From Candidatus Melainabacteria bacterium RIFCSPLOWO2_02_FULL_35_15 (GTDB lineage Bacteria; Cyanobacteriota; Vampirovibrionia; 2-02-FULL-35-15): 35,894 nucleotides of DNA. Positions 1,969 to 8,250 of this stretch are shown piece after piece. The number at the start of each line of letters is the position of its first letter. Position 1 is the first letter of the stretch. Location: NCBI GenBank assembly GCA_001784585.1, contig MFRN01000031.1:56962-92855 (forward strand). The letters are read 5' to 3'. The notes beneath the pieces were generated by a model, which had not been told where the DNA came from, searched no databases, and saw only the letters and a list, made by a program, of their open reading frames with translations. The position numbers were made by a program, and so were the translations under genes.

Positions 1969-4693
1969 TAAAATTTTTAAAACTGTAACGGTAAAGAAGT
2001 TTTATTTACTTGCTTTTCTGTTTTTCTTTTTATCGATAAGTTCATCACAGGCTCAATCTGATTCTCCAATTTATATTAATCCGTCATATATTCAGATTCA
2101 GCAATCAGGCACAGCTGTAGCTGCTGTTACAGGTATAGATTTAAATAATGCAGTTATTAAAATTAACGGCAGTGGAATATTTGGTTTTATCTCAGAACAG
2201 AACCCTGACGGTACACAGCTTCAGGTCCAGTTTTCAGCCCAGCCTACTGCTGAGCTTGGAGAGAGAGAATTTTTTATAAAAACTGAAACTCAGGAAGCAA
2301 AGTTTATTATTAAAGTAATTCCTTCGGGTGCACCAACTGTTGAAAGCATTTACCCTAACAGTGCAAAACCAGGTAAAACATTTTTTTTAAAATTGTTTGG
2401 TATGGGATTTATCCCTGGTACAAATGTTATAAGTAATTATTTCTCTGTAAGTTCATATGCTTCCACGCCAGATGGTTCTGTTCTGGTAGTTTCACTCTCT
2501 ATATCTCCTGAACTGGAGCCAGGTACTTACCCTATTTATATAAATAATCCTTCAGGACAACAGGCTCAGGCAGATTTTACAGTATCAGGCTCTGATACTG
2601 CTGAAAACACTGATTCATTTAATGTAGATCCGTACTCTCCCGGAATTTATTCTATTGAACTAAGTTCTGCAAACAAAAATCAGATTGTAATTAAGGGTTC
2701 TATGTTTGATCCTGATCCGTATAAAAATACAGTAACTTTGCTTGAAAATAAGGATAATACGGTAACCGGAAGACCGGTTGAAGTGGCTTATTCGGACAAC
2801 GATGAAATTATTATTAATCTGCCAGATGACATAAGTTCAAATTCCATAAGCTTTGCTGTATCCAGTGCTGACGGTAAATCAAGTAATATTAAAACCGTTA
2901 ATCTGGACACTCTTCAGTTAAGTACAGCACATTCATCTGATACTGCTCAAACCACGCCAGAATCAAACACTGCTTCTGTTATTGCATCGCAACCAGCACA
3001 AATAATAAATACTACAACAATTACAGAAGGATCCACTCATAATAAACCTGAGAATAATCTCCAGGAAATAAACAAAACTGAAGTAACAATAAATGAAAAG
3101 ATACCAGTAAAACCTGCAATTACTGAAGATTCTGATGTTATTAAGAATATACAAAATATCAGCCAGTATCTTTTCAACAGTTCAGCAATTGATTCAAATA
3201 AAGATTTGACAGTTCCCTCTTTAGAAGAAGTTAAAGATCCTGTAAAACTGATTTCTGCAATAGAAGAAAACAAACAAATTAAAAATCAGGTTGATCTGAT
3301 TACCACAGCACTTAATGGAGCAAAACAAAATCAGGAATTATCCAATACATTAAAAAAAGCAGAAGTATTAAAAACAAAGGTAGACGAGCTTGAAAAATTA
3401 CTTTCTGCAGAAAAACAAAAGAATAAACCTGATCTAAAAAAACTTGCACAATATGAAAAACTTTTAGCAAGTGCTGATGCTGAGTCCAGATCACAGACAT
3501 TTACACTCTTAAATAAACTTTTAAAATACAAACCACAGCTAAAAAATCTTCTTACCCAAAAGCCGCTTGATCTGGCTACAGTACAGCCTAACATTCCAAA
3601 CAATGCTGTTATATTACAGTATGTGCCTACTGAAGAAGGTTTAATTATCTTTGCAGTAGATAATAAAAACTTAAAAACAAGAATAAATAAAAATATTTCA
3701 AAAGATATTTTAAACAGAGAGGTTCAGTCTTACAAGCAGCTCTTTGAAAACGAAATAGAAAAAATCAAACTTACAGGCAGAGTGACACCTATAAGTAACT
3801 GGAAAAACGACAAATCAAACACATACAAAAAAGAAATTCTTCCTTTAAAAGAAAAAGCTGTTTTTTTATACAATGCATTAATAGGACCTGTTGAAAAAGA
3901 CATTGCAAATAAAAAAGTTATTGCAATTATTGCAAACGGGTGGCTCAGATATTTACCCTTCCAGTCGCTTGCAAAACCAACCAGTGACGGTGACTTAAGA
4001 TTCTTAGTATCCGACAAATCAATTGTTTATTTAGACAGTGTAATAGCTGTAAGCAGAAATCAGTCTCCGGAATTAACAAATATGGCAAATATTACTGTGT
4101 TTGCCAATCCGGACGGAACGCTTACAGGAGCAAACAAAGAAGCAGAATTAATTTCAAAGCTATTCAGTAAGACCACTATGAGTCTCGTACAGCAGCCATT
4201 CAATGTTTCTCTTATAAACCAGCTGGCTAAAAAAGCTGATATCTTACACCTCGCAACCCATGGACATCTGGATGGAAGTGACATTGATTCCAGCTTTCTT
4301 ATATCCGGGAAAACAAAAGCAGGAAGTAAATTTACTCAGGGAAAACTTTATTTAAAAGATATTTATGATTTAAACCTGAGTAATAGTAAACTAATTGTAC
4401 TTAGCGGGTGTGATACCGGGAGGGTAGGAAATCTGTTAAATGAACCTGATGATATTGTAGGCAGCCTGGCATCGGCATTCAGGGTAGCCGGTGCAAATAC
4501 AATACTGGCAAGTCTCTGGAGAGCACATGATGAAGCTACAAAAATAATTATGCAAAACTTTTATGAAAACATTTCGCTTGGTCTGGATAAAGCCGAATCA
4601 CTTAGAAGAGCAGAATTAAAAGTAAAAGAAAATCCTAAATATGGTCATCCATTATTCTGGGGATTGTTTAGTTTAATTGGGGATTGGCGATGA
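1955..4693 (+). CDS. Exported TIG/coiled-coil CHAT-domain protease
   Basis: This is a caspase-like (clan CD) putative cysteine protease of the CHAT family. I place the start at TTG1955, 9 bases after an AAGGAG site, which yields a clean signal peptide (KKFYLLAFLFFFLSISSSQA) and a 912-residue product. An upstream in-frame ATG at 1802 lies deep in the preceding gene. In order: signal peptide; beta-rich IPT/TIG-like domains (about 125-212 and 226-319); a Ser/Thr/Asn-rich linker; Lys/Glu-rich coiled coil (about 440-535); and a C-terminal CHAT domain (about 549-912). The catalytic dyad appears intact: His769 in LATHGHL and Cys819 in LSGCDTG, followed by the typical VGSLASAFRVAGA and [16 protein letters not shown]. 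It is the last gene of the response-regulator operon. Its 3' end overlaps the end of convergent ftsH by 21 bases. The protease target is unknown. Confidence 0.88.
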   Translation: MAKHNKIFKTVTVKKFYLLAFLFFFLSISSSQAQSDSPIYINPSYIQIQQSGTAVAAVTGIDLNNAVIKINGSGIFGFISEQNPDGTQLQVQFSAQPTAELGEREFFIKTETQEAKFIIKVIPSGAPTVESIYPNSAKPGKTFFLKLFGMGFIPGTNVISNYFSVSSYASTPDGSVLVVSLSISPELEPGTYPIYINNPSGQQAQADFTVSGSDTAENTDSFNVDPYSPGIYSIELSSANKNQIVIKGSMFDPDPYKNTVTLLENKDNTVTGRPVEVAYSDNDEIIINLPDDISSNSISFAVSSADGKSSNIKTVNLDTLQLSTAHSSDTAQTTPESNTASVIASQPAQIINTTTITEGSTHNKPENNLQEINKTEVTINEKIPVKPAITEDSDVIKNIQNISQYLFNSSAIDSNKDLTVPSLEEVKDPVKLISAIEENKQIKNQVDLITTALNGAKQNQELSNTLKKAEVLKTKVDELEKLLSAEKQKNKPDLKKLAQYEKLLASADAESRSQTFTLLNKLLKYKPQLKNLLTQKPLDLATVQPNIPNNAVILQYVPTEEGLIIFAVDNKNLKTRINKNISKDILNREVQSYKQLFENEIEKIKLTGRVTPISNWKNDKSNTYKKEILPLKEKAVFLYNALIGPVEKDIANKKVIAIIANGWLRYLPFQSLAKPTSDGDLRFLVSDKSIVYLDSVIAVSRNQSPELTNMANITVFANPDGTLTGANKEAELISKLFSKTTMSLVQQPFNVSLINQLAKKADILHLATHGHLDGSDIDSSFLISGKTKAGSKFTQGKLYLKDIYDLNLSNSKLIVLSGCDTGRVGNLLNEPDDIVGSLASAFRVAGANTILASLWRAHDEATKIIMQNFYENISLGLDKAESLRRAELKVKENPKYGHPLFWGLFSLIGDWR

Positions 4694-6734: not shown

Positions 6735-7268
6735 TTATCCATCTATAGCCAGATATGGCAAATGCCTAAATTTTTCAGCATTATCTAATCCATAGCCTAC
6801 AAGGAAATAATCTCCAACATCAAAACCTATATAATCTGCTTTTATATTTACTTCTCTTCTGGCAGACTTGTTTAGCAAACAGGCTACCTTCAGACTTTTT
6901 GGCCTAAACTGGGCACTAAAATATTCTCTTAAGAAACGAATCGTTTTACCACTATCCACAATATCTTCCACTATCAATATATCCCTGTTGCTTAAATCAG
7001 GCAGCAATAAAAGAGGTGCTTCAATTTTTCCACTGGATATTTTTTTTGTACCATAACTGGATATTCTTACAAATTCAAGCTGAACAGGTAAATTAATTTC
7101 CCGTATTAAATCAGCTGTAAAAATAAAAGCACCTTTTAAGACCGATATAACCACAAGAGGCTGAGGATGCTTAATTACAGAATAATTTTTCTCGATTTTT
7201 TTTGCAAGCTGTTTAACAACTTTCTGTATCTGGGATTCCGAATATAATACTTTTAATTTATGTTTCAT
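6735..7268 (-). CDS. hpt: Hypoxanthine phosphoribosyltransferase
   Basis: This purine salvage enzyme makes IMP/GMP from hypoxanthine/guanine and PRPP in the cytoplasm. At 177 residues it has family length. The PRPP-binding signature ILIVEDIVDSGKT (about 97-109) is clear. It also has the LKGAFIF segment near residue 45 and the C-terminal purine-binding stretch YIGFDVGDYFLVGYGLDNAEKFR ... LPYLA, where FDVGDYFLVGYGLD is diagnostic. Its ATG lies within the 3' end of tilS (11-base overlap), implying translational coupling, as in the conserved tilS-hpt-ftsH cluster. Confidence 0.96.
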   Translation of the reverse strand: MKHKLKVLYSESQIQKVVKQLAKKIEKNYSVIKHPQPLVVISVLKGAFIFTADLIREINLPVQLEFVRISSYGTKKISSGKIEAPLLLLPDLSNRDILIVEDIVDSGKTIRFLREYFSAQFRPKSLKVACLLNKSARREVNIKADYIGFDVGDYFLVGYGLDNAEKFRHLPYLAIDG

Positions 7269-8250
7269 AACAACTTAATTTAATACTGAACATTATCTCA
7301 TTTCCTGTAACATTCATAATATATTTTTTACTAAGATCTATTTTCTTTTGATTTGTAATTGCATTTTTGATGACATGGATCTTACTAAGGGCACCTTTAA
7401 TACCGTAAACTGTAAAAAACCAATATATAAAAGCTGTTTGAGTGCAAGAATCCAGTTTTAAAAATTTATCCCTGTTTAGTATTAAAGGTGATCTGATTCT
7501 TATTTTTTTTAAAAGCATAGAAAAATAATTACTTAATGCTATATATTGAGAATAAGCTAAATCACTAAAAGTTAAAATATTATTTTCAGCTTCCGGATTG
7601 ATTTTTCTTAATAACGGTAATATTTTTACCCTGATTAAATTTCTTTTATAATTTACATCACGATTTGTTTTATCCTCTATATATTTTAATTCGTTTTCTT
7701 TTGCATATTTATAAATTTGTCCTTTTGTAAAATCCAGAAGCGGTCTGAATATTGTTATTCCACCCGGAAGCTCTCTAAACTCTTTAATTGGAACAAGTCC
7801 ATTTGGACCGGTTCCTCTGGCTAATCTGAATAAAACTGTCTCAAGCTGATCGTCCCTGTGATGAGCAGTACAAATGACTTTCAGGGAAAATTTCCTTGCA
7901 CAAGTCGTGAAAAAAGAATATCTTTGTTCCCTGGCTGTTGCTTCGTCTTTCCCGCCTGAGGCGGGTCCGTCTTTGGCGGAAATTATTTCCCCTTTATTTC
8001 CTCCATATAAAAATTTTATTTTATTTTCCTTACAGTATTTTTCAACCAGTCTGGCATCTTTAAAAGACTCCTTTCGCCATTTATGGTTATAATGCATAAC
8101 ATAAAGTTTTAGATTATGCTCTTTGCTTATATTAAAAAAAATGTCAAGCAAAACCATTGAATCCACACCACCGGAAACTGCGAGTCCGATTTTTTTATTC
8201 TTTAATTTCCGGAGCAGTATCGGTTTCTGGTGTTTTTTGTTTTTTGTCAT
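7258..8250 (-). CDS. tilS: tRNA(Ile)-lysidine synthase with an in-frame repeat insertion
   Basis: The enzyme attaches lysine to C34 of the CAU-anticodon tRNA-Ile so that it reads AUA. The N-type ATP pyrophosphatase loop SGGVDS is at residues 26-31, followed by VMHYNHKWR and the typical ATAREQRYSFF and CTAHHRDDQLETVLFRLARGTG motifs. The 330 residues fit the shorter forms of the family. Residues about 90-102 (SAKDGPASGGKDE), just before ATAREQRY, are encoded by a double GC-rich palindrome and look like an insertion relative to family members. The ATG at 8250 has no clear ribosome binding site and overlaps the upstream gene by 56 bases; no better in-frame start precedes the P-loop, so it may depend on coupling. 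It overlaps hpt by 11 bases. Confidence 0.95.
   Translation of the reverse strand: MTKNKKHQKPILLRKLKNKKIGLAVSGGVDSMVLLDIFFNISKEHNLKLYVMHYNHKWRKESFKDARLVEKYCKENKIKFLYGGNKGEIISAKDGPASGGKDEATAREQRYSFFTTCARKFSLKVICTAHHRDDQLETVLFRLARGTGPNGLVPIKEFRELPGGITIFRPLLDFTKGQIYKYAKENELKYIEDKTNRDVNYKRNLIRVKILPLLRKINPEAENNILTFSDLAYSQYIALSNYFSMLLKKIRIRSPLILNRDKFLKLDSCTQTAFIYWFFTVYGIKGALSKIHVIKNAITNQKKIDLSKKYIMNVTGNEIMFSIKLSCYET
7951..7980. repeat. Double GC-rich palindrome inside tilS
   Basis: Two hairpins lie back to back: CCCGCC-TGA-GGCGGG (7951-7965) and TCCGTC-TTT-GGCGGA (7966-7980, one G-T pair). They are strikingly GC-rich in an AT-rich gene. The arrangement matches a type of dispersed REP-like element I recall from several bacterial genomes. 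It adds about 10-13 residues to TilS without breaking the frame. Confidence 0.75.

Follow-up and report, generated by a model that had tools for sequence, protein, structure and literature searches.

What is a GC-rich double palindrome doing inside the gene of an essential tRNA-modifying enzyme, in DNA that is otherwise AT-rich? The question is raised by tilS of Candidatus Melainabacteria bacterium RIFCSPLOWO2_02_FULL_35_15, located in a window (the whole stretch of DNA that was analysed) of 35,894 nucleotides. The features concerned are the following:

7258..8250, minus strand: tilS, tRNA(Ile)-lysidine synthase, the host gene; 330 aa, open throughout, with the element in frame.
7951..7980, no strand assigned: putative double-palindrome insertion element of 30 bp; two abutting 15-bp hairpins, near-palindromic overall.
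7951..7965, no strand assigned: hairpin 1, CCCGCCTGAGGCGGG; perfect 6-bp stem and 3-nt loop, by folding.
7966..7980, no strand assigned: hairpin 2, TCCGTCTTTGGCGGA; 6-bp stem with one non-Watson-Crick T.G pair, 3-nt loop.
7945..7986, no strand assigned: target-site flanks; on the gene strand ...ATAATT, the element, AAAGAC..., giving an ATT^AAA junction.

The two hairpins follow each other without a spacer (7965/7966), and their GC-rich stems stand out from surrounding DNA of about 31–37% G+C in a genome of 35% GC. Each of CCCGCCTGAGGCGGG and TCCGTCTTTGGCGGA is the single such site in the whole window, against 0.15 and 0.01 matches (at up to three and up to two mismatches, respectively) expected from dinucleotide shuffling. 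Read on the gene strand, positions 7951–7980 are TCCGCCAAAGACGGA-CCCGCCTCAGGCGGG, i.e., the ten codons TCC GCC AAA GAC GGA CCC GCC TCA GGC GGG encoding Ser-Ala-Lys-Asp-Gly-Pro-Ala-Ser-Gly-Gly (SAKDGPASGG). The sequence-only reading of this locus had placed two adjacent GC-rich hairpins in an AT-rich tilS, correctly as regards both coordinates and hairpins; of the peptide that it ascribed to them, SAKDGPASGG does come from the element, and the last three residues, KDE, are native.

The host open reading frame (ORF) belongs to the PP-loop family (PF01171, E 4.6e-54) and matches the tRNA(Ile)-lysidine synthase structures 1wy5, 3a2k, and 1ni5. SAKDGPASGG directly precedes the conserved EATAREQRY segment of TilS and is missing in all 26 aligned relatives (gap of 9–10 residues), as the sequence-only reading had expected of family members. 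In the TilS alignment the ten-residue gap is present in all ten same-family genomes and in most others, with at most one residue at this place elsewhere. The estimate of about 10–20 extra residues thus narrows to exactly ten. At the DNA level the alignment with four relatives has one 30-nt gap, immediately 5' of an AAA codon. It is also worth mentioning that TilS is short here (330 aa) and in one same-family genome, G008 (329 aa); the open frames of the other same-family genomes encode 461–507 aa.

The expectation that further copies would be found in the same genome was confirmed: pattern searches, on which all genome-wide copy counts rest, found eight double palindromes (at most two mismatches) in the 1.94-Mb genome and none for a reversed-pattern control. 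Six of the eight lie within ORFs, whose frames they leave unbroken. The aminotransferase, phosphomannomutase, and CAX-type antiporter of this genome are each exactly ten residues longer through a copy, and in same-genus orthologues of these three genes (78–88% identical) the site is empty, except in the aminotransferase of a second same-genus species (G002), which has the insertion in common. DNA alignments of four genes, tilS included, have 30 additional bp at TT^AA-like sites and no target duplication. The nearest empty sites are those of sister species, and no copy was caught moving inside one species. Insertion rather than loss is the parsimonious direction at the genes compared, and the aminotransferase insertion appears to have been inherited by descent in the two species.

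Two other kinds of repeat were also observed. One, a palindromic family of about 29 bp in the own genome (GGATTTGTCCGCCTNAGGCGGACAAATCC; contig stretches L002, L003, L005, L006, and L014, at position about 1501), lies in stretches without long ORFs and consists of single hairpins with a longer stem and the same CCGCC core. The other, TGTCATTGCGAGGAG...CGACGAAGCAATCTC, is in frame (peptide SVIASEAKQSHNSYNENEIASSSAKGGLLAMTS) at about 1400–1520 of L007, also from the own genome, in a 932-aa ORF resembling valyl-tRNA synthetase (ValS-like); an ORF of a related genome (L192) has a similar repeat with a double palindrome inside it. Around position 1500 of L180 and L191, from same-genus genomes, an additional inverted repeat, GAGGCAGGTTT...AAAACCTGCCT, encloses the copy of the double palindrome; the enlarged element measures about 54 bp and is likewise in frame, in L180 within an alkyltransferase-like ORF.

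The tilS element can be considered, with a probability of about 0.83, a non-autonomous mobile 30-bp 'double hairpin' that was inserted at an AT-rich TT^AA site with nothing else changed. This reading is drawn from the exact 30-bp gains at independent genes, the presence of the element in several phyla, its preference for TTY^RAA, its co-varying stems, and a bias in reading phase. The clean insertions, the empty sites, the copies elsewhere, and the residence in essential genes likewise bear out the suggestion of the sequence-only reading that an essential tilS tolerates a mobile-type palindrome.

Public genome contigs were searched with a core pattern of 28 bases, most stem bases being fixed, which matched at least 117 stretches; the data are genome assemblies, including metagenome-assembled ones. 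Among the matches listed are many Patescibacteria lineages, Omnitrophota, Kiritimatiellae, Margulisiibacteriota, Firestonebacteria, and Auribacterota, as well as single members of other phyla. The 25 element-bearing genomes in which copies were counted contain from 1 to 58 (the control gave 0 in all), with the highest numbers in one Omnitrophota genome (58) and one Kiritimatiellae genome (49). Prevalence is patchy. The window's own family has the element in 7 of its 11 genomes, the rest of the class one doubtful match among 183; in the phylum that includes a Doudnabacteria genome 7 of 145 have it, and in that of an Omnitrophota genome 26 of 117.

The consensus of 118 distinct sites among the matches listed is TT, TCCGCCRRAGGCGGA-TCCGCCTYYGGCGGA, AA; each half consists of the stem arms TCCGCC and GGCGGA, enclosing the loop RRA in the first hairpin and TYY in the second, so that hairpin 2 is approximately the reverse complement of hairpin 1. 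In the flank logo of these sites T and then T or C precede the element and A or G and then A follow it (T at position -2 in 83%, T or C at -1 in 83%). The ATT^AAA junction in tilS, which has no target duplication, fits this TTY^RAA preference. The hairpins abut in 132 cases, versus 2–8 at any other gap, a difference that is partly ascertainment, the pattern itself fixing the spacing. Direct repeats of 7 bp (at least 6/7 identity) surround copies at 9 of the 118 sites, against 0.7 expected. This excess, for which clean insertion does not account, is seen at sites within genes as well as at others; several of the sites with such repeats are in locally repetitive DNA. With respect to the direct target-site duplication of a transposase-type MITE, the observations point in two directions: 7-bp repeats occur at a minority of sites, and target duplication was seen at none of the four sites with empty comparators. 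The repeats of genic copies can hardly be target duplications, because a net insertion of 37 bp would shift the frame; they may be pre-existing repeats. In one Kiritimatiellae contig (L135) a tandem repeat contains the element twice, in identical form and about 100 bp apart, at positions 4423 and 4522.

Pairing of the stems has been maintained through sequence change. A pattern leaving each side of a stem free to vary found 31 copies in the window's class, almost all of them in its own family; 11 cells in these copies had changed on both sides and were still paired, compared with 3.1 ± 1.4 after shuffling (maximum 8 in 2000 shuffles). In the aminotransferase insertion common to two species, each copy has a stem mismatch of its own, in keeping with decay once a copy is in place; it is therefore more probable that pairing is needed by the moving form than by the resident one. 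Two further kinds of pairing were considered and rejected: an outer stem around the element does not exceed chance (1 site vs. 0.4 expected), and the unit as one long palindrome finds its loops weakly complementary (26/118 vs. 16.8).

The element has no gene of its own, so some other factor would have to move it in trans. Movement would probably take place on single-stranded DNA, with each half folding as its hairpin; such a route best fits an element that inserts without regular duplication of the target and is recognised by structure instead of sequence, and may be similar to that of Y1 (HUH) transposases. Phages and plasmids were dropped as carriers, as there were two matches in 2.9 million viral contigs and none in plasmid and phage collections.

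The alternative that survives best, though still unlikely, makes the element a minimal REPIN, i.e., two inverted REP hairpins mobilised by a REP-associated tyrosine (Y1/HUH) transposase, RAYT. The inverted pair of hairpins and the lack of a regular target duplication do resemble Y1-transposase chemistry; Y1_Tnp genes are present in 20 of the 25 element-bearing genomes, as well as in several same-family genomes, and different REP-like palindromes occur at or within RAYT genes of these genomes. REPs (PMC3733652) and REPINs (PMC3116915) share with the element short, GC-rich, dispersed hairpins without a gene of their own and the inverted pair. However, REPs are mostly extragenic and tagged with GTAG or CGTC (PMC3733652), whereas the element is mostly in ORFs of the sampled loci, and neither tag is found in its consensus or in the flank logo of the 118 sites. 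Nor is it associated with a cognate RAYT gene: the double palindrome was near none of 30 Y1/RAYT loci sampled from the Y1_Tnp matches in element-bearing genomes, many of which carry other hairpins, and three genomes (G003, G004, and G201) have 5–9 copies and no detectable Y1_Tnp. A RAYT/Y1 protein was for these reasons abandoned as the obvious mover. A separate observation concerns four stretches from same-family genomes (L199, L200, L201, and L202), in which Y1/RAYT ORFs themselves hold strong GC-rich palindromes in frame, with peptides such as GADPCVCPN and VGANQCVCPN, as though the transposase gene had been invaded by its own REPs.

It is highly improbable that the palindrome is a functional signal selected wherever it is located, be it a terminator, a protein-binding, DNA-uptake, or chromosome-organising site. 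Sequence conservation and paired stems would suit such a role, but the few copies per genome, their absence from close relatives, and their presence inside essential genes would not; no known RNA family of Rfam matches the element, and no T-run follows the hairpins.

Residence in protein genes is common among the matches listed: 66 of the 118 sites are well within a reading frame of 200 codons or more. Genes are barely avoided, since overlap with ORFs at the 200-codon cut-off is only slightly lower for elements (63%) than for random positions (75%). Host proteins recognised by curated models include RpoB, AtpD, SecA, UvrA, TsaD, CysS, GyrB, ProS, and ArgS, together with DnaG, UvrC, RecG, Mfd, and others. 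In alignments with solved structures of RpoB, AtpD, and TsaD the residues of the element have no counterpart (gap of 8–10). Two Omnitrophota (L109 and L133) have an insertion in the same gene at the same position and two Magasanikbacteria (L098 and L118) have a RecG insertion in common; copies can therefore persist. In another stretch (L070, 4495–6939) a pheT-like ORF contains two copies, one of them located at the start of an apparent NlpC/P60-type segment within the phenylalanyl-tRNA synthetase beta frame; a fusion, a join made during assembly, or an inserted domain may lie behind this arrangement.

The reading phase of the 66 genic copies is strongly biased: 59 are in phase 0 (SAxGGSAxGG), four in phase 2, and three in phase 1. 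TYRA sites in the long ORFs of the same loci predict 60:30:10, and the excess of phase 0 has a P of about 1e-7. The TT^AA target by itself, with phase bias as a side effect, would account for the scarcity of phase 1, but not for the 59:4 ratio of phase 0 to phase 2, and was discarded as an explanation. From frame and phase we infer that the ten residues are translated. Ribosome-skipped hairpin inserts are known from T4 gene 60 and the byps of fungal mitochondria, and the element, a hairpin structure within a gene, is similar in this respect; an insert kept in the mRNA and left out of the protein, by ribosome bypass or RNA excision, is nevertheless scarcely credible here. Its length is divisible by three, the frames are open, and the preference for the phase yielding small, flexible residues is understandable only with a peptide that is actually synthesised, which counts against bypass.

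As a mobile 30-bp unit, the element would be tolerated in genes because it amounts to ten codons, mostly stop-free in frame, and would encode a small, flexible, and soluble linker; in the favoured phase this linker, Ser-Ala-x-Gly-Gly-Ser-Ala-x-Gly-Gly, could be accommodated in a surface loop. Loss is presumed for copies that are out of this phase or at structured positions. The unit is not universally stop-free, as about a fifth of the copies have a stop in at least one of the six frames.

A lineage-specific loop extension by ordinary small insertions, with an accidental palindrome, has next to nothing in its favour beyond the variable length of loops in TilS-type proteins, and is contradicted by the recurrence of the 30-bp unit genome-wide and across phyla as abutting 15 + 15 bp and by exact 30-bp insertions in several genes.

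Several known systems invite comparison with the mobile double hairpin. The Rickettsia palindromic elements, RPEs (Ogata et al. 2000, 2002), given as 105–150 bp in PMC2229807 and PMC10969869, and the protein-coding palindromes of Wolbachia (Ogata 2005, cited in PMC3733652) are likewise palindromic selfish DNA located both between genes and in frame in conserved genes, with host proteins that presumably stay functional. The likeness to RPEs proposed by the sequence-only reading therefore holds for behaviour, namely in-frame residence in conserved genes, and not for membership: at exactly 30 bp the element is about four times shorter, and it is a double hairpin encoding a Gly/Ser/Ala linker and occurring in several phyla of mostly uncultured bacteria, a distinction made by description. 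The mitochondrial double-hairpin elements (DHE) of Allomyces and the repetitive hairpin-forming elements (PMC2800124) offer another parallel. DHEs also consist of two short GC-rich hairpins back to back, dispersed in AT-rich DNA and entering genes; compared by description, they are organellar, in contrast to the bacterial element with its fixed 30 bp and reading phase. The small dispersed repeats of cyanobacteria (Elhai 2008) and the coding palindromic repeats of Methanocaldococcus (Suyama 2005), cited in PMC4390886 and PMC2229807, respectively, are similar in being very small mobile prokaryotic repeats, some with coding potential. No description of the element's DNA or peptide was found in the literature searched, which mostly excluded subscription papers, so its novelty is provisional.

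More tentatively, and with the odds slightly against it as a whole, we suggest that these copies represent an undescribed family of coding mobile palindromes, patchily distributed over several phyla, for which a candidate trans-acting machinery would recognise the hairpins and insert 30 bp at TT^AA, donating ten-residue Gly/Ser/Ala linkers to essential proteins such as RNA polymerase, gyrase, SecA, ATP synthase, and tRNA synthetases.

Discussion of selfish palindromes in protein genes has so far treated them as peculiar to Rickettsia and Wolbachia. A much smaller element that encodes a linker would display the same behaviour in core genes of Patescibacteria, Omnitrophota, and other mostly uncultured lineages, which raises the question of what enzyme transfers the two hairpins, 30 bp in all, from one TT^AA site to another. 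For annotation the finding is a warning that such residues would be mobile-element inserts. The copies would also constitute natural insertional experiments, mapping where essential proteins tolerate a ten-residue linker.
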